Source of the DNA: Pararhizobium sp. A13
GTDB taxonomy: Bacteria > Pseudomonadota > Alphaproteobacteria > Rhizobiales > Rhizobiaceae
Reading direction: 5' to 3'
Length of the DNA stretch: 64,000 nucleotides
Assembly (NCBI RefSeq): GCF_040126305.1
Contig: NZ_CP149511.1
Span: forward strand, 558,001-622,000
The position numbers and the translations under genes were made by a program. This document shows positions 43,393 through 52,410 of the stretch, piece after piece (the first letter of the stretch is position 1; every line of letters begins with the position of its first letter). Under the pieces are notes generated by a model. The model saw nothing but the letters and a program-made list of their open reading frames with translations. It made no database searches and had not been told where the DNA came from.

Positions 43393-46300
43393 ATGAACAC
43401 CTCCACCGATCAAAAGCAGTCCTTCAATCTCTCCCGCTGGGCGATCGAGCATCCGAGCATCGCGCGCTTCCTGTTCGGCCTGATCCTCATCACCGGCGTT
43501 TTGGGCCTGATGCGCATGGGCCAGAAGGAAGATCCGGATTTCACCTTCCGCGTCATGGTTGTGCAGGCGATCTGGCCGGGCGCCTCAATTGAGGAGATGG
43601 AAGACCAGGTCGTCAACAAGATCGAGCGCAAGCTGCAGGAAACGCCACATCTCGATTTCGTCCGCTCATACACCCGCCCTGGCAGTGCCATCATCACGCT
43701 GCAGGTCGAGGGCGACACCAACGCCGCGCAGGTTGCAGACGCGTTCTACCAGGTTCGCAAGAAGGTCGGGGATATCGAAAACGAGCTGCCGCAGGGCCTG
43801 CTCGGTCCCTATTTCAACGATGAGTTTGGCGATACCTTCATCACGCTGCACTCACTGAGCGGTGACGGCTACAGCTACCCCGAGCTGAAGAAGTTCGCCA
43901 TCCAGGCGCGTGACATGCTGCTAACGACGCCCGGCGTCGAAAAGGCCGTCATCATCGGCGATCAGCCGGAGAAGGTCTATATTGACATCTCCTCCAAGGT
44001 TCTCGCCACGCATGGCCTGACGCTGACTGATGTCCAGAATGCCATCAAGGGCCAGAACAATGTCGATCCAGCGGGCTCCGTCGATACCGGCAGCCGCTCC
44101 GTGCGCATCGCTGTCGATGGCGGCGTGACCAAGCCAGCGGATATCCGCGAGTTGCGACTGAGGGCCGGCGACCAGGTCACTCGTCTCGGCGATATCGCCG
44201 CCGTGTCGTCCGGGCTCGAAGATCCCTATCAGCGCAAATACCGCTTTAACGGCGAGGACAGCGTCCAGCTCGGCGTCGTCATGGCCAAGGGCTTCAAGGT
44301 GACAGACGTCGGTGCTGCCGTCGAGGAAACCTACAAGCGCTTCGGATCCGCGCTGCCCTATGGCGTCAAGGTCGACCAGATTGCCAACCAGCCGGAGGTC
44401 GTGACCGACGCGGTCAGCGAATTCATGCATGCTCTCGGCGAAGCGCTGGTGATCGTGCTCGTTGTCTCCTTCCTGTCGATCGGCTGGCGCTCCGGCCTGG
44501 TGATCGCCATTGCCATCCCGCTCGTGCTCGCCGCCACCTTTGCCATCATGTACGAACTCGGCATCGACCTTCAGCGCATTTCGCTCGGAGCCCTCATCAT
44601 CGCGCTCGGCCTGCTTGTCGATGACGCGATGATCGTGGTCGAGATGATGGAACGCAAACTCGAGGAGGGGCTGCACAAGGTCGATGCAGCGAGTTTCGCC
44701 TATTCCTCGACCGCCTTTCCGATGCTGACCGGCACTTTGATCACCACGGCCGGCTTCATCCCCGTCGGTTTCGCGGCCTCGACCGCCGGCGAATATGTGC
44801 GCTCGTTGTTCTACGTCGTCGGGATTGCGCTGGTCGTATCGTGGTTCGTGGCGGTCTATTTCACGCCCTGGCTTGGCTATATGATCCTCAAGCAGCGCCA
44901 TCATGCCGGGGAGCATCACGACGTTTTCGATACGCGCTTCTACCGCCGCCTGCGCGCCACTGTCGGGTGGGCCGTGCGCCACCGCGTCATCGTACTTTCG
45001 CTGACGCTGGTCACCTTCGCCACCAGCCTGTGGGCCTTCCAGTTCATTCCGAAAAACTTCTTCCCGCAGTCCTCAAGGCCTGAAATCCTCGTCGATCTCT
45101 GGTTGCCGGAAGGCACCAGCATCAGGGAAGTGGAGGCACAGGCCAAGGCGCTGGAAGCGAAGATGATGGACGACGAGGACAAGAAGTTCATCGCCACCTA
45201 TATCGGCGAAGGCGCGCCGCGCTTCTTCCTGCCGCTCGACCAACAGCTGCGCAATCCGAACTTCGCCCAGCTTCTCGTCATGGCCAACGATGAACCGGCC
45301 CGCGAGCGGCTGATCGTCAAGTTGCGGGGCATCCTTGCGCAGGACTTCCCGTCGATCCGCAGCAAGGTCGATCGCCTGTTCCTCGGTCCCCCAACCGGCT
45401 GGCCTGTCCAGATGCGCGTCATGGGGCCGGATCGTGCCGAGGTCCGCAGGATCGCCGACGAAGTGAAGGCGAAGTTTTCCGAAAACCCGCAGCTCGGCGC
45501 CATCCACGACGACTGGCTGGAGCCAGTTCCTGCCATGAAGCTGGTGATCGACCAGGATCGTGCCCGCGTTCTGGGTGTGACGTCGCAGCGCATTCGCCAG
45601 ATGCTGCAGGCATCGATGACCGGCGCGCCGATCGATGATTTCCGCGACGGCGAGGAAACCGTATCCATCGTCGCCCGAGAACCGGAAACAAGCCGTCACC
45701 TGCTGTCGGCGGTGGATTCGGTCTACATCCCGACGGATTTCGGCAGTTTCGTACCCCTGTCACAGGTCGCCAAGGTCGTCCCGGTTCTGGAACAGGGTAT
45801 CGAATGGCGCCGCAACCGCCTGCCGACGATTACGGTGCGCGGCACCTTGCCGGACGGCGTGCAGCCGAACGACGTGGCGATGAAGATGTATGCCGACCTG
45901 AAGCCACTGCGCGACGGACTTGCGCCGGGCTATACGGTCGAGATCCAGGGCGGTGCCGAAGATTCCGCCAAAAGCCAGCAGTCGATCGCCGACAAGGCGC
46001 CGGTCATGCTTGCCGTCATCGTCGTGCTCTTGATGATCCAGCTGCAGCATTTCGGCAAGGCGATGCTGGTCTTGGCGACCGGCCCGCTGGGCATTATCGG
46101 TGCGGCCGCGGCCCTCCTGATCAGCGGCGCGCCTTTCGGCTTCGTCGCCATCCTCGGCGTCATCGCTCTGCTCGGCATCATCATGCGCAACTCGATCATC
46201 CTCGTCGATCAGATCGACCAGGATATTGCTGCCGGCATGGAACGATCGGAAGCGATCATCGGTTCGGCCGTGCGCCGTTTCCGGCCGATCGTGCTGACGG

Positions 46301-46536
46301 CAATGACGGCTGTGCTGGCGCTGATCCCAATCTCGCGCGGCGTTTTCTGGGGCCCACTCGCCTTCGCCATGATGGGCGGCATCCTCGTCGCCACCGTGCT
46401 GACGATCCTCGTGCTTCCAGCCGGCTATGCCCTATTCTTCGGGAAAGAGCCAAAGAAAAGTGTTGCCGAACCCGAGCAAGTGAACGAGGAACCGGAGCCG
46501 GAAGCGATGTATCCGGCATCCTTGGCCGCCGAGTAA
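43393..46536 (+). CDS. RND multidrug efflux pump, inner-membrane subunit
   Basis: 1047 residues, AcrB-like. N-terminal helix IARFLFGLILITGVLGLMRM, porter domains and twelve membrane helices. In helix 4, LIIALGLLVDDAMIVVEMME supplies the two Asp of the proton relay, so this is the HAE-type drug pump and not a heavy-metal HME pump. GFIPVGFAASTAGEYVRSLF and VRRFRPIVLTAMTAVLALIP are further family blocks. ATG at 43393 lies 31 bp after the adaptor. Substrates are unknown. An Fe-S or TolC gene does not follow. Confidence 0.93.
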   Translation: MNTSTDQKQSFNLSRWAIEHPSIARFLFGLILITGVLGLMRMGQKEDPDFTFRVMVVQAIWPGASIEEMEDQVVNKIERKLQETPHLDFVRSYTRPGSAIITLQVEGDTNAAQVADAFYQVRKKVGDIENELPQGLLGPYFNDEFGDTFITLHSLSGDGYSYPELKKFAIQARDMLLTTPGVEKAVIIGDQPEKVYIDISSKVLATHGLTLTDVQNAIKGQNNVDPAGSVDTGSRSVRIAVDGGVTKPADIRELRLRAGDQVTRLGDIAAVSSGLEDPYQRKYRFNGEDSVQLGVVMAKGFKVTDVGAAVEETYKRFGSALPYGVKVDQIANQPEVVTDAVSEFMHALGEALVIVLVVSFLSIGWRSGLVIAIAIPLVLAATFAIMYELGIDLQRISLGALIIALGLLVDDAMIVVEMMERKLEEGLHKVDAASFAYSSTAFPMLTGTLITTAGFIPVGFAASTAGEYVRSLFYVVGIALVVSWFVAVYFTPWLGYMILKQRHHAGEHHDVFDTRFYRRLRATVGWAVRHRVIVLSLTLVTFATSLWAFQFIPKNFFPQSSRPEILVDLWLPEGTSIREVEAQAKALEAKMMDDEDKKFIATYIGEGAPRFFLPLDQQLRNPNFAQLLVMANDEPARERLIVKLRGILAQDFPSIRSKVDRLFLGPPTGWPVQMRVMGPDRAEVRRIADEVKAKFSENPQLGAIHDDWLEPVPAMKLVIDQDRARVLGVTSQRIRQMLQASMTGAPIDDFRDGEETVSIVAREPETSRHLLSAVDSVYIPTDFGSFVPLSQVAKVVPVLEQGIEWRRNRLPTITVRGTLPDGVQPNDVAMKMYADLKPLRDGLAPGYTVEIQGGAEDSAKSQQSIADKAPVMLAVIVVLLMIQLQHFGKAMLVLATGPLGIIGAAAALLISGAPFGFVAILGVIALLGIIMRNSIILVDQIDQDIAAGMERSEAIIGSAVRRFRPIVLTAMTAVLALIPISRGVFWGPLAFAMMGGILVATVLTILVLPAGYALFFGKEPKKSVAEPEQVNEEPEPEAMYPASLAAE

Positions 46537-46554
46537 CGCGCTGTGACCTGCAGA

Positions 46555-46594
46555 GAACACCGCTGAAAGTCGCTATTCGCTTTTAGCGGTGTTC
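46555..46594 (+). terminator. Hairpin terminator after the RND operon
   Basis: GAACACCGCTGAAAG (46555-46569) pairs with CTTTTAGCGGTGTTC (46580-46594) over 15 bp with one G-T pair. It lies 18 bp after the stop. There is no T-run, so it may act as an RNA-stabilising 3' end rather than a full terminator. Confidence 0.6.
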
Positions 46595-46691
46595 AATCGA
46601 TTTATGGTCCGGCGAGCCATCCGCTACGCGCATAGCGCATGGCTGCTCTGCAAAATTCTGCCTACGATTTAAGCGAGAATCATGTATAGTC

Positions 46692-46851
46692 AAATTATCG
46701 AAGCGATGCACCTCCTCCCGCAAAGCTGCGATTGCGAGTGTCCTTACTCCTCCTCCCAGAGGGCACTTGCGGAATGGCGACACTCCTCCTCCCAGTCGCC
46801 GTTCGGTTCTATTTGAAAGCCTGCCGCACCTCCTCCCGCGGCAGGCTTTTT
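46692..46851 (+). ncRNA. Tandem cuckoo/CcsR-type small RNA array, four anti-SD hairpins
   Basis: Four consecutive hairpins each expose CCTCCTCCC in the loop, at 46711-46719, 46749-46757, 46785-46793 and 46829-46837. Stems: 46697-46704 with 46725-46732 (one mismatch); 46734-46743 with 46761-46770 (10 bp, two G-T pairs); 46773-46781 with 46795-46803 (9 bp); 46819-46827 with 46838-46846 (9 bp perfect), the last followed by TTTTT. The stems differ in sequence while the loops agree, the signature of selected RNA structure. Known alphaproteobacterial relatives (CcsR of Rhodobacter, cuckoo RNAs) are stress-induced and often follow a DUF1127 gene; none is here. TATAGT at 46685-46690 may be the promoter -10. 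Confidence 0.85.
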
Positions 46852-47067
46852 CGTTTGTGGTCTTGGAAGACAAAAGCCGCCTGCCCTTGACTTGCCATGG
46901 CTCACAAGAGCGTCGTCAGCCGGAATGCAGGGAAACCCGCGCTCGACGAGATCGCGCCGTCGGCGCAATCAAATGGATCGCTTGCGTCCTCGCAAGCAGG
47001 CCTCCTTTCTCCCGTTACCCCGGAATTGGCAGCAAGTGCCACAAAGCGGCAAGTTCTCGAAGATTGC

Positions 47068-47155
47068 TTTCAATTAGTCACCCAGAAGATTTCAAATGGT
47101 CACCACGTGACTTTCAATTGGTCATAGCCGTACTTTCAAACGGTCACCAAGGAGC
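47068..47155 (+). repeat. Four direct repeats at exact 22-bp spacing before the AAA-ATPase gene
   Basis: TTTCAATTAGTCACC (47068), TTTCAAATGGTCACC (47090), TTTCAATTGGTCATA (47112) and TTTCAAACGGTCACC (47134) share TTTCAA-N3-GTCA and start exactly 22 bp apart, about two helical turns, with unrelated 7-bp spacers. The ribosome site AAGGAG of the ATPase gene falls in the last spacer. The array suits a protein that binds along one DNA face. It looks like iterons but no replication gene is present; a promoter operator is more likely. Confidence 0.75.
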
Positions 47156-47161
47156 GAAGCT

Positions 47162-47605
47162 GTGGCGATTTATTCAAGACTCGTTGAGCACCGCGTCAAC
47201 GACGCTCTGTCAGACACTCGTGTCGTATTGATCGTTGGCCCCCGTCAATCCGGGAAGACAACGCTTGCCAAGAAGACGGCCAAGGCGGTCACTGCCACGG
47301 CCCGCAAAAGCGCCGTCTTGTTCTACAATACCCTGCGGCACGGTATGGAATACAGCGATCCGGGAGCCTCCCACTACGAGGAGAATTACCGTCGACGCGT
47401 CCTCACCAATCTCGAGCGAAGAGCAAAGTCGTTCGGGTATACCCTACAGCCCGCGCCAACATCCGGCTGAATGTTTCTTAGGAATTGCGGGAAAGTGTTG
47501 ATCCCGACCAACGGCCTGGACGTTTCCTCCTTACGGGATCGGCTAATCTTATGACGCTGCCACGGGTGGCGGACTCGCTCGCAGGGCGCATGGAGATCCC
47601 GCGTT
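47162..47605 (+). pseudogene. AAA ATPase (DUF4143-type) gene broken by an insert
   Basis: GTG at 47162 starts a frame reading VLIVGPRQSGKTTLAKK (Walker A), then homology ends at about 47280. It resumes at about 47482: VDPDQRPGRFLLTGSANLMT followed by LPRVADSLAGRMEI (to about 47600), the segment after Walker B in AAA_14/DUF4143 ATPases. Between them is an IS110-type transposase end. Walker B and the whole C-terminal domain are missing, so no active ATPase is made. These ATPases are common in bacteria but their role is poorly known. Confidence 0.75.
47281..47480 (+). mobile_element. IS110-type transposase C-terminal fragment inside the ATPase gene
   Basis: The frame 47281-47470 reads TATARKSAVLFYNTLRHGME, then YSDPGASHYEENYRRRVLTN and LERRAKSFGYTLQPAP. 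I recognise this as the C-terminal end of an IS110-family transposase (TATARK-A-LFYN-LRHG, YE-RYR-RV--NL-RRAK-FGY). The rest of the element is absent. IS110 elements lack inverted repeats, so ends cannot be checked that way. It is fused in frame to the ATPase start, giving a chimeric frame. Confidence 0.6.
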
Positions 47606-47610
47606 ACTGT

Positions 47611-47631
47611 CCTCGAAAAATTTGAAAGTCT
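47611..47631 (+). promoter_or_regulatory. 21-bp element shared with the purine-degradation promoter region
   Basis: The 21 bases here (beginning CCTCGAAAAATTTGAAAG) recur exactly at 60813-60833, in the same orientation. The inner TCGAAAAATTTGA has partial dyad symmetry. Here it lies 236 bp before the purine permease start. The intervening 47632-47866 shows no gene; no riboswitch that I can recognise. Confidence 0.55.
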
Positions 47632-47866
47632 TTCGCTTTCGCCGTCGAAATGGACGGCTAGCGATCCGGCTTGCGAAAACGCACAATCATGACGCCGTAA
47701 ATGAGGCCTCCGGCATCCCTTGGCGGGACGCGGGACCCTGATCGGGCAGGAGCCCCGACAAGTCGTGACGATTTGAAGATCGGTACAAATAGGTGGTCGC
47801 CGGAGGAGAAGGCGGTCCGCCAATGATATTTGCCGGGATTGGATTATTCCGGCTAAGGGAGGAAAT

Positions 47867-49159
47867 ATGTTTGAACGGCTCTTCAAGCTGAGTGAGCACA
47901 ACACGACGGTCCGCACCGAGCTGGTCGCCGGCCTGACGACATTTCTCACAATGTCGTACATCATCTTCGTCAACCCGGACATCTTGTCGACCACCGGAAT
48001 GGATCGCGACGCGATCTTCGTCGCGACCTGTATCGCCGCAGCGCTCGGCTCGGCGGTTATGGCGCTCGTCGCCAACTGGCCGATCGGCATGGCACCGGGC
48101 ATGGGCCTTAACGCCTTCTTCGCCTTCACGGTGGTTGCCGCACTCGGCTTCACCTGGCAGCAGGCTCTGGGCGCGGTCTTCATCTCGGGCCTGATTTTCG
48201 TCTTCCTGACGGTCACTGGCATTCGCAGTTGGCTGATCGCCGGCATCCCGCATTCACTGCGCAGCGCAATCGCCACCGGTATCGGACTTTTCCTCGGCAT
48301 CATAGCGCTGAAGAATGCTGGCATCGTCGTCGACAATCCGGCAACGCTGGTCGGTCTCGGCAGCCTCAAGGCAACCGGGCCGCTGCTGGCGATCTTCGGC
48401 TTCTTCGTCATCGCCGTGCTCGACGCGCTGCGTGTCCGCGGGGCCATCCTGATCGGCATTCTGGCCGTGACCGTGCTGTCATGGATTACCGGCGTCAGCG
48501 AGTTCCGCGGCATTGTCTCGATGCCGCCGAGCATCGCGCCGACCTTCCTGCAGCTCGACATCGTCGGTGCCCTGCATGGCGGCCTGTTCCATGTCATCCT
48601 CGTCTTTGTTCTGGTCGAAGTCTTCGACGCCACTGGAACGCTGATCGGTGTCGCCAAACGCGCCAATCTCATCCAGGAAGGCAAGCGGAGCCGCCTCGGC
48701 CGGGCGCTTCTTGCGGATAGTACCGCAATCGTCGCCGGTTCGCTGATCGGCACCAGCAGCACCACCGCCTATGTCGAAAGCGCCTCTGGCGTGCAGGCCG
48801 GCGGGCGCACGGGTCTGACTGCTCTCGTCATTGCCATCCTGTTCCTCGCCTCGCTGTTCATCTCGCCTCTCGCCGGCTCGGTCCCGACCTATGCGACGGC
48901 GCCGGCGCTGCTTTACGTGGCAGGCCTGATGATGCGCGAACTGACGGAAGTCGAATGGGAAGACCTGACGGAAGCCGCACCGGCCGCGCTGACGGCGCTT
49001 GCAATGCCCTTCACCTACTCGATCGCCAACGGCCTCGCCTTCGGCTTTATCAGCTACGTCGTCCTGAAGGTGTTCACTGGCAAATGGCGTGTGCTGCATC
49101 CGGCAACGATGATTGTCGCGGCACTCTTCATCATCCGCTTCGCCTTCTTCGCGGATTGA
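47867..49159 (+). CDS. NCS2-family purine permease (AzgA/PbuG type)
   Basis: 430 residues, twelve or more membrane segments. Family motifs: ELVAGLTTFLTMSYIIFVNP at the N terminus, GMAPGMGLNAFFAFTVVAAL, the substrate-site block HVILVFVLVEVFDATGTLIG (about residues 243-262) and GTSSTTAYVESASGVQAGGR. AzgA-like members import adenine, guanine and hypoxanthine with protons. ATG at 47867 is preceded by AAGGGAGGAAAT. The purine-degradation genes at 58.8-64 kb share an upstream 21-bp element, which supports purine import for catabolism. Confidence 0.92.
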   Translation: MFERLFKLSEHNTTVRTELVAGLTTFLTMSYIIFVNPDILSTTGMDRDAIFVATCIAAALGSAVMALVANWPIGMAPGMGLNAFFAFTVVAALGFTWQQALGAVFISGLIFVFLTVTGIRSWLIAGIPHSLRSAIATGIGLFLGIIALKNAGIVVDNPATLVGLGSLKATGPLLAIFGFFVIAVLDALRVRGAILIGILAVTVLSWITGVSEFRGIVSMPPSIAPTFLQLDIVGALHGGLFHVILVFVLVEVFDATGTLIGVAKRANLIQEGKRSRLGRALLADSTAIVAGSLIGTSSTTAYVESASGVQAGGRTGLTALVIAILFLASLFISPLAGSVPTYATAPALLYVAGLMMRELTEVEWEDLTEAAPAALTALAMPFTYSIANGLAFGFISYVVLKVFTGKWRVLHPATMIVAALFIIRFAFFAD

Positions 49160-49193
49160 TGGATAGGGCGGGGCAGCTCGCCGCGCCCGCCGA

Positions 49194-49948
49194 TAGTTAC
49201 CCCCGACCAGGACGTTGTCCGCCCCGAAGGGGGCGGACAACCGCAGGACCACGGCGTGGTCGCGATCGGCGAGCACGAATTCCCGATCGGCCGTGTCTAC
49301 AAAGTAGAAGGTGATACCTGGCTCACGCTTAAGGGTGCCGCCGCCAACCCGCCGCGCGTGGGCGACCTCGCGGCGGTCTCCGTCAACGCTGAGCGGCGAC
49401 GCGAGCTGTCGCGCAGCCACACCCTGTGCCACCTCATGATGGCGGCAGGCAAGGCGTGCCTTGAGGACTTCGACAGCAAGGGTGCGGCGATCGACGAGAC
49501 AGGCAGGTAGGTCAGGATCAGCTTCCGCACCACTTCGGTCTTCGACGAGATTGCGATCAACATGATGGATGCTGTCGTCAGGCACCTCATCGCCAAGGAC
49601 GCGCCCGTGACCTTCGCCACAGTCAAGTCCCTTGAAGACGGGGCAAGCCGCTATTCGCGCTGGCGTGTCGACTCATCGCTCGGTCTTACCGGCAAGATCC
49701 GCGTCGTCGATATCGCCGGTATCGATGCGAACCCGTGTTCAGGTTCGCATGTGAAAAGCACTGGCGAAGTTGGCCCGTACATCTTCTCGCAAGAGGAGAC
49801 GCGGGAAGGCGATCTTCATCACTTCCATGCGGAACGCACGGCGACCTGGATGTACTGGTTTGGTGAAGAATTGCTGATCGGCTTCGACTGGCAGGCGCTT
49901 CACGCACGGACGGCCTATCTTCGTCACCAACGCAACCTCTGCCGCTAG
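49194..49948 (+). pseudogene. AlaX-type alanyl-tRNA editing protein, broken by an in-frame stop
   Basis: One frame reads RPEGGGQPQDHGVVAIGEHE, later ELSRSHTLCHLMMAAGK, then TAG at 49508-49510, and continues in the same frame with SFRTTSVFDEIAINMMDAV and IDANPCSGSHVKSTGEVGPY. The HxxxH of SHTLCH and CxxxH of CSGSH are the zinc site of AlaX trans-editing enzymes, which hydrolyse Ser- or Gly-tRNA(Ala). The N terminus before PEGGG is missing. A perfect hairpin (49215-49225 with 49230-49240) lies over the PEGGGQ codons and could end NCS2 transcription. Reading through the TAG is possible but the lost start argues for decay. Confidence 0.75.
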
Positions 49949-50743: not shown

Positions 50744-51976
50744 TTAGGTAGCGAGCGCTATCTCAGTCTGATCGTTTATGAAGGCGGGTTCATACTGGCG
50801 CGCCAAGGAGCCGGAGACGCCCACCTGTCGAAGCGCCTCACGCCATTCATCAAAAATACACCGCACCGCAGCACGGACCATCCTACGAGCGTCTGCTTCG
50901 GCGATCTCGAAAAACTCGCAGGCTTCCAGCGCCAGACGGATCGATCGGTCATGCACGCCACCTTCCAGTATCGCCGTTTCGAGATGCGGATTGCGGTCAG
51001 GCGCGGGGTTCACATCGAAAACCGGAGACAATCGCCAGCGGCCGGCTCCCACATAGAGGAAGCCGTGATTCTTCAGATGGTCATCCTTGTTCGACACAAG
51101 GATGGTGAAGATCAGGCGCAGAAAAAGTTCGCGGAAATCGGCCTGCGGATCAGCGGCATTTGCCCGCATGAAGTCGATGATCTCCGTATAGGAACCGATC
51201 TCTGTCCCGGTCTTGCCAAGGGCTGTGCGGGCCGAGATGTAGGGAATACGTGCGGTCCCGCGCCGGTCGAACCGCCGAATCAGAGCGACCGGGAATGGCG
51301 TGTCGGCGAGTTCCAGCCTGACTTCCGGCGTGCGGATGCCGCAGGCCCGGGCGAGGCGGAGCGTGGCGACCTCGATGCACTCGATCGGCTGCTGGTCATG
51401 AACCGAGGTGAACTTGGCGAGCCAGAGCGCGTCGCCATCGCGGACATTGGCCTTGGGACGCGCACCGCCCGAACCGCCCGCACCGGCGAGCGCCTGCATG
51501 TCCTCGGGGGATATCTCCTTGCCTTGCTCATAGGCCCGGGCGATGGCGGTGATCGCTTGCAGATCGACTAGGCGTGGCACAGCATCGGCCGCCCCACCCC
51601 GGATAATTTGCCCTGCATCGTCGAGAAACCGCAAGGCCCCCTGCCGGCAAGTGTCATCGGACAGGGTCAGATATTCGAATTCGGAAAGGCCGTTGCCATA
51701 GGCGCGCGCGAGAAGTCTGCGGCCCCAACTATCCGGCGTGGCGTCGGCGAAGACGCCCGCCAAGGCGTCGCGCATGTTTCCGGGCTGACCAGATGTGTGA
51801 AATGGCCCAGCTTCAAGGGGAAAGGTCGGCTGCACGGCAAAGGCGCGAGGATTCTCGATCCAGGCGGGATCATAGGCGAAGGTCGAGAACTGCCGCGGCC
51901 CGGCCTGCGTGAAACGAAGCTGGCCAACCTGTGTCAGGCTCTCGCCGAGAACGACATGGGCGTTGAATTCAGGCAT
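50744..51976 (-). CDS. hipA: HipA-type serine/threonine kinase toxin
   Basis: 410 residues. HipA kinases phosphorylate translation components (GltX in E. coli), causing dormancy until balanced by HipB. Core features: GGSGGARPKANVRDGDALWL (P-loop-like, about residues 150-170), ECIEVATLRLARACGI with FPVALIRRFDR, catalytic NKDDHLKNHGFLYV (Asp base) and PVFDVNPAPD (Mg-binding Asp). All appear intact. ATG at 51976 overlaps the hipB stop as ATGA, coupling the two. The N-terminal subdomain (VVLGESLTQVGQLRFTQAGP) is present, so this is a full-length HipA. Confidence 0.92.
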   Translation of the reverse strand: MPEFNAHVVLGESLTQVGQLRFTQAGPRQFSTFAYDPAWIENPRAFAVQPTFPLEAGPFHTSGQPGNMRDALAGVFADATPDSWGRRLLARAYGNGLSEFEYLTLSDDTCRQGALRFLDDAGQIIRGGAADAVPRLVDLQAITAIARAYEQGKEISPEDMQALAGAGGSGGARPKANVRDGDALWLAKFTSVHDQQPIECIEVATLRLARACGIRTPEVRLELADTPFPVALIRRFDRRGTARIPYISARTALGKTGTEIGSYTEIIDFMRANAADPQADFRELFLRLIFTILVSNKDDHLKNHGFLYVGAGRWRLSPVFDVNPAPDRNPHLETAILEGGVHDRSIRLALEACEFFEIAEADARRMVRAAVRCIFDEWREALRQVGVSGSLARQYEPAFINDQTEIALAT

Positions 51977-52353
51977 CAGAATGACGCACCGTCCGGATCG
52001 ACGACATCCGAATCATCCTGTGCCGTCTTACCCTTGGCCTTCTGCCTGCGCAGTGTGGTCGCAAAAGATCGTCCGCGACGCGGCTGGCGTTCGGCGGTCA
52101 GCGCTAGACCCAGATCATCCTTGCGGATGTCGATCAGGTCGGCCAGCCGGTCGACAAGACCAAGCACGACCAGGATATCCGCGAGCGTGCCGATCCCGAC
52201 ACCGGGATCTCCCTTTTCCAAGCGCGCGACGGTGCTCGGCGACGTGCCCGCGCGCACCGCCAGATCGGCCACGGCGATGCCGCGCCGCAAACGAGCGCCG
52301 CGGACGTCGTGTCCGAGCCTTTCGAGCGCAGACTTTGATTTCGGCGATCCCAT
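51976..52353 (-). CDS. hipB: HipB-type XRE antitoxin
   Basis: 125 residues. XRE HTH: LGHDVRGARLRRGIAVADLA followed by VRAGTSPSTVARLEKGDPGV (about residues 11-50), a helical dimerisation part, and a charged Arg/Lys-rich tail that is longer than in E. coli HipB and may contact HipA. ATG at 52353 starts the conserved region; a start at 52392 is possible in frame. AT-rich DNA upstream (52354-52410) carries short symmetric pieces such as CATATATG, perhaps its operator. Confidence 0.88.
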   Translation of the reverse strand: MGSPKSKSALERLGHDVRGARLRRGIAVADLAVRAGTSPSTVARLEKGDPGVGIGTLADILVVLGLVDRLADLIDIRKDDLGLALTAERQPRRGRSFATTLRRQKAKGKTAQDDSDVVDPDGASF

Positions 52354-52410
52354 AGCAATAGTCCAGATACGACAATTAAAAATCAATATCACATCATATA
52401 TGACTGATTA

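Follow-up and report, generated by a model that had tools for sequence, protein, structure and literature searches.

A likely ar14/cuckoo small RNA gene with four hairpins in Pararhizobium sp. A13

The array and its surroundings

The window, i.e., the whole stretch of 64,000 nucleotides from the soil bacterium Pararhizobium sp. A13 that was analysed (C2:558001–622000), carries four exact copies of CCTCCTCCC within 127 bp behind the end of an RND efflux operon. The copies start at 46711, 46749, 46785, and 46829, all on the forward strand (46711–46837), and no other exact copy was found on either strand of the 64-kb window. Dinucleotide shuffles of the window contained 0.52 copies on average, and only one shuffle in 100 reached four anywhere in the 64 kb, clustering not being required. 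The region 46692–46851 is predicted to fold into four hairpins (−68.2 kcal/mol, z −7.4; equal stability in 0 of 200 shuffles) with one motif in each of the four loops, and the motifs have mean probabilities of 0.98–1.00 of being unpaired. When the motifs were kept fixed and every other base of 46697–46853 was shuffled 500 times, no motif fell in a hairpin loop of its own in 420 shuffles, one did so in 78 and two, the maximum, in 2, compared to four in the real sequence. Exact search, fold and shuffles therefore bear out what had been read from the sequence only, namely that four motifs within 127 bp each occupy the loop of their own stem. The same sequence-only reading spoke of an sRNA cluster, but a single RNA containing four hairpins describes the array better than a series of separate sRNAs does.

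All four hairpins lie on the forward strand. Hairpin 1 (46697–46732, motif at 46711–46719), defined from fold and alignment, is the weakest and is imperfect in the window copy, where it has an internal loop and an A·G mismatch; the latter results from GCTGCG in the window copy at a place where all 27 other aligned arrays have GCTTCG. Hairpins 2 (46733–46771, motif at 46749–46757) and 3 (46772–46804, motif at 46785–46793) were taken from the fold and have six and four pairs, respectively, with two-sided changes among 28 aligned arrays, hairpin 3 being paired in 99.3% of cells. Hairpin 4 (46815–46850, motif at 46829–46837) is nearly invariant across the same arrays, with 100% of cells paired, and is a predicted Rho-independent terminator with a T run after its stem. 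This stem had been described as a perfect 9-bp hairpin; the nine G+C-rich pairs are there, and A-T and G-T pairs lengthen it to 13. A coding function of the array was rejected, as motifs 1 and 2 are spaced by 38, 39, or 40 nt among copies of the same lineage and a reading frame would therefore break.

The likely ends of the RNA can be transferred from Sinorhizobium meliloti. A search of a plasmid collection with 46692–46853 gave matches in 559 records, with a query coverage of 80% or more in 457, and S. meliloti 1021 pSymA matches positions 2–162 of the 162-nt query at 1328176–1328338 (84.3% identity, E 2e-36). The sRNA SmelA099 is listed there at 1328175–1328334 on the minus strand, with a length of 160 nt (PMC2873474). 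The alignment extends over the full length, start and terminator included, and places the SmelA099 ends at 46696 and 46854 of the window, which gives a predicted full-length sRNA of 159 nt on the forward strand. The sequence TATAGT (46685–46690, forward strand), earlier noted as a possible promoter, is identical in S. meliloti, where its end precedes the listed 5′ end of SmelA099 by 6 nt, and the surrounding TGTATAGTCAA is also identical between the two loci. TATAGT or TATATT occupies the same alignment columns in 18 of 18 same-genus copies (see below); a separate scan found the box at −26 in 17 of them and in the last (L068) picked TATCGT further upstream. Because the SmelA099 5′ end aligns at 46696 and TGTATAGTCAA is identical, TATAGT is very probably a real −10 box of an sRNA promoter, and conservation backs the earlier suggestion as well. 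The −35 region is, by eye, a poor match to the consensus.

A TGC-rich element, GGCTGCTCTGCAAAA (46641–46655, forward strand), lies 70 nt before the first motif and is found at the same offset (−70) in 17 of the 18 same-genus copies, the scan having chosen another stretch in L078. In 11 fetched four-unit copies of a second lineage a closer match to the palindrome TGCTGCANTGCAGCA, with 1–3 mismatches, is found at −70 or −71, while the element of the window lineage has 3–5 mismatches to it. By analogy with the LsrB box of NfeR1 (PMC10746234) the element may be an activator site, but its sequence departs from the sister-lineage palindrome, so that regulation by LsrB is no more than a lead.

Several other features were observed in the neighbourhood. 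An inverted repeat without a T run (46556–46594) directly follows the RND stop codon and may mark where the RND mRNA ends; a microRNA model gives a match there that is far under its cut-off. Downstream of the array there are four imperfect TTTCAANNGGTCACC repeats (47067–47149, found by eye), which we take to resemble insertion-sequence ends, next to an AAA-ATPase fragment of 102 aa (47162–47470). Further on, a HipA-like protein and an upstream helix-turn-helix gene (50744–52392, minus strand) make up a HipBA-type pair.

Family membership and conservation of the fold

The sequence-only reading had proposed a covariance-model search as a check on a cuckoo/CcsR-type assignment. The Rfam model ar14 (RF02344) matches 46729–46853 on the forward strand with 103.3 bits (cut-off 58.8, E 5.7e-18). 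This model has three hairpins and covers units 2–4, so that the extra hairpin of the window array is found at the 5′ end. As expected for ar14, whose members have two to four hairpins, each with an unpaired CCUCCUCCC, on variable stems and occur in multiple copies per genome on different replicons, the array has four such units and the genome seven such places. The range of two to four hairpins is that reported for the cuckoo family (PMC4504443), and the four-hairpin form has been in print since 2011, SmelA075 having three and SmelA099 four CCUCCUCCC hairpins according to PMC3927594. The models CcsR1 (RF02791) and ar7 (RF02342) stay below their cut-offs on the array (28.4 of 65.3 bits and 28.2 of 60 bits, respectively), and the adjacent co-transcribed DUF1127 gene that characterizes CcsR/CIN1 was not found at the window locus. 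Membership in CcsR was rejected on these two grounds, score and locus. The cuckoo part of the assignment thus stands, through the ar14 match and the full-length relative SmelA099, and the CcsR part does not: because the CcsR1 cut-off is not reached, the array is placed by its sequence in the rhizobial ar14/SmelA099 branch and not in CcsR itself.

Conservation of the fold was examined in an alignment of 28 arrays, i.e., 30 loci minus L083, a duplicate of L082, and the three-motif locus L091; L083 was likewise not refolded in the same-genus conservation set. When each sequence is folded by itself, all 111 exact motifs (four in 27 arrays, three in L089) are predicted to be entirely unpaired. The structure of L068 served as reference for covariation, and 92.4% of cells pair in it against 34–52% in slid versions, a comparison in which it is favoured because it was taken from one of the aligned sequences. 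Two-sided changes were found in 10 pairs (shuffled mean 7.0; 2 of 500 shuffles as high) and 47 cells (shuffled mean 20.4; 0 of 500), and the covariation score was 0.176 (shuffled mean 0.135; 0 of 500). The number of further pair types points in the opposite direction (30, whereas shuffles averaged 32.6 and equalled or exceeded it in 492 of 500 cases). Helix 2 is paired in only 76.3% of cells, mostly because the stem of the second lineage differs there, and among the 28 arrays helices 1 and 4 have no two-sided changes. Covariation therefore supports stems 2 and 3, while stems 1 and 4 appear simply conserved. The anatomy of the array, its family membership, the conservation of loops and stems and the conserved −10 box are direct observations.

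Copies in the genome and in relatives

Seven ar14 places, three on C1 and four on C2, were found in the genome (three contigs, 6.36 Mb in total), and by our own tally they hold 23 of its 61 exact motifs; a reversed-pattern control gave 56. One additional motif (L002, C1:2987689–2987697) lies about 10 nt past the second of two tandem ar14 matches and upstream of a DUF1127 gene, and another place (L177, C2:1404046–1404079) is a solitary hairpin 1 with its motif, 88% like that of the window, with no further units and no ar14 match. Among the 61 genomes searched, own included, ar14 was found at E ≤ 0.001 in 45 and above the cut-off in 37. With the window array as DNA query, in a sample of 41 genomes composed of the same genus and other families, to the exclusion of other genera of the same family, 25 were matched, i.e., all 25 of the same genus and none of the 16 from other families. 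Identity of the best copy reaches 91% or more in 18 of these 25 (own included). Two arrays of a relative (G006) depart from the usual number of units. L180:932–1122 (contig C7) has five motifs, one unit above the published two to four, through repetition of a 63-base stretch containing unit 3 and the start of the terminator (ar14 75.2 and 58.7 bits, the latter just below cut-off), and reflects either a recent duplication or an assembly error. L181:940–1022 (contig C10) has units 1–3 followed by a truncated terminator hairpin and unrelated sequence (ar14 58.3 bits, just below cut-off).

The same RND gene is found upstream of 13 of the 18 copies, clearly in 12 and with an RND tail split over two frames in the 13th (L081). 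Recent mobility together with the neighbouring mobile scars was considered and found unsupported, as the RND neighbour is common to these 13 copies and the other neighbours vary, and in six array-free RND loci that were checked blastn (E ≤ 0.01) found no trace of the array. Nearest to the window among genus-named records are Rhizobium herbae, Pararhizobium sp. YC-54 and Pararhizobium qamdonense; in plasmid p2 of the latter the array lies between genes for an RND permease and an amino-acid ABC transporter, in a gene table without RNA genes. A plasmid search with 45000–49500 matched 494 records, none over 80% of the query, and shows only that the RND gene is widespread.

The lack of a DUF1127 gene upstream had been presented as an oddity of this locus. 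There is indeed no DUF1127 match in the window, but none was found within about 1.5 kb on either side of any of the 18 copies of the window lineage, nor within the roughly 1 kb scanned on either side of SmelA099 (2 kb in all), so that its absence is normal for the lineage. The three-motif loci L091, L004, L006, and L007 are also without DUF1127. The genome has eight DUF1127 matches in all, three of which are neighbours of other ar14 copies at a distance of up to about 1 kb: the second four-unit copy (C2:1311332–1311488) has one upstream, and the tandem copies C1:2987707 and C1:2988005 have two downstream. In the second four-unit lineage a DUF1127 gene lies about 200 nt upstream in eight of 11 copies, the count referring to those fetched and leaving out further listed ones, and this lineage occurs in many of the same genomes as that of the window. 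The two lineages, one without DUF1127 and one mostly with it, hence provide a natural pair for studying the role of DUF1127 proteins for such RNAs.

Possible function and alternative explanations

We consider it highly likely that the array is the gene for a trans-acting sRNA of the ar14/cuckoo family, a counterpart of SmelA099, whose loops block ribosome-binding sites. RNA polymerase would start near 46696 behind the conserved TATAGT box and terminate at hairpin 4, and the four loops of the transcript would expose CCUCCUCCC unpaired, so that each could base-pair with an mRNA at a ribosome-binding site that contains GGAGG and thereby prevent translation, the four units being presumably redundant. 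By analogy with relatives the loops, which match ribosome-binding sites, most likely silence target genes at the level of translation; by the same analogy the RNA would be transcribed, cut to shorter fragments and induced by stress or nutrient conditions. At 3–10 nt before ATG the genome has 49 matches to GGGAGGAG and 74 to GGGAGGAA, while the reversed patterns give 7 and 3, respectively (in each case with one site counted twice). Many ribosome-binding sites could therefore pair over 7–8 nt, and the counts, which name no target, suggest many possible partners. The 16S rRNA 3′ tail was sought with two patterns for comparison with the host anti-Shine-Dalgarno sequence, neither of which matched. 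A well-studied relative, NfeR1, is reported to silence mRNAs through three redundant anti-Shine-Dalgarno loops, ntrB and ABC transporter mRNAs being among its reported targets, to rise under nitrogen limitation and salt shock, and to be activated by LsrB and repressed by NtrC (PMC10746234; PMC7143759). Stress induction has been reported for the relatives SmelA075, NfeR1, and CcsR.

Array and RND gene share a strand, with 160 nt between the RND stop codon and the predicted start, and as 13 of the 18 copies have this gene upstream, it is conceivable that the array represents only the terminator-containing 3′ UTR of the RND efflux operon and arises chiefly when that mRNA is read through and processed. 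This is very unlikely, as array and −10 box persist in the other five copies (L072, L073, L074, L078, and L080), where the 1.5 kb on each side contains no RND match, the RND stop codon is followed by an inverted repeat of its own, and the −10 box and listed start are common to S. meliloti. Conversely, among the best 80 of 331 RND loci, kept with their record titles, eight have a four-motif array 157–205 nt behind the RND match and 71 have none within 2 kb, i.e., 71 of the 79 with enough flank, the contig of L163 ending too soon. Some of the titled loci probably come from the same strains as the genomes searched, because their array sequences are identical. The persistence of five copies without the RND gene within 1.5 kb indicates that the array is a gene of its own.

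Such a gene could still have fallen silent. With seven ar14 copies in the genome the one in the window may be redundant, its hairpin 1 mismatch is confined to this genome among the 28 aligned arrays, and since only one of six NfeR1-type loci in S. meliloti was reliably detected by northern blot under the conditions described (PMC7143759), the window copy could be silent too. Yet its four loops, stems 2–4, terminator and −10 box are intact and kept in 18 same-genus copies, and we regard a decaying or unexpressed paralogue as quite unlikely. It is also possible to imagine that the loops do not act on chosen mRNAs and serve as a general mimic of the 16S rRNA tail, and hence as a broad brake on translation, or as ligand for a protein of the DUF1127 type. 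The motif is generic and common to all seven copies, pairable ribosome-binding sites are numerous, the DUF1127 protein CcaF1 reportedly binds RNA and contributes to the maturation of the related CcsR RNAs (PMC10253847), and the genome has eight DUF1127 matches; against this, NfeR1 has specific reported targets (PMC10746234; PMC7143759) and the window copy has no DUF1127 neighbour, which makes such a role unlikely. A more speculative idea, which we hold to be highly improbable, is that hairpin number works as a dial, units with frozen loops being duplicated and lost (compare L180), and that the four-unit copy is a multivalent 16S-tail mimic damping translation broadly. If so, the four-unit copy, which most of the genus has kept and which lacks DUF1127 and has its own promoter, would not be silencing a few mRNAs.

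Relation to described RNAs

Within the ar14/cuckoo family the array is a further, well-made but ordinary member. We found nothing in it beyond what is published except for small variations such as the hairpin 1 mismatch, and it opens no new kind of system; what it adds is a conserved cuckoo RNA of the Pararhizobium clade with four units, whose likely ends and promoter were obtained by transfer from SmelA099. CcsR1–4 of Rhodobacter sphaeroides (RF02791) share with it CCUCCUCCC in hairpin loops and have a reported stress role, but have two hairpins each (PMC3927594, on RS0680a) and sit behind the DUF1127 gene ccaF1 with an RpoHI/HII promoter (PMC10253847), and the array differs from them in staying below the CcsR1 cut-off and in having no DUF1127. 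The ar7 RNA is likewise an alphaproteobacterial sRNA with C-rich loops, whose model cut-off the array does not reach. NfeR1 (Smr14C2, SmelC397; RF02344) has in common with the array the loops, the terminator unit and the presence of several copies per genome; it is reported to have three hairpins and a promoter controlled by LsrB and NtrC (PMC10746234), while the window array has an additional 5′ hairpin and another upstream element. The closest likeness is to SmelA099 (smrA6) on pSymA of S. meliloti, which has the same four CCUCCUCCC units, −10 box, start and terminator. Their sequences differ by about 16%, with stems 2 and 3 accounting for much of the difference. Hairpin 1 has a continuous outer stem in SmelA099 and a mismatched one in the window copy, and the third motif of SmelA099 is partly paired in the predicted fold, which counts against an exact likeness, that of the window being unpaired. 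The spacing of the motifs is similar in the two RNAs, with 37, 36, and 46 nt in SmelA099 and 38, 36, and 44 nt in the window.
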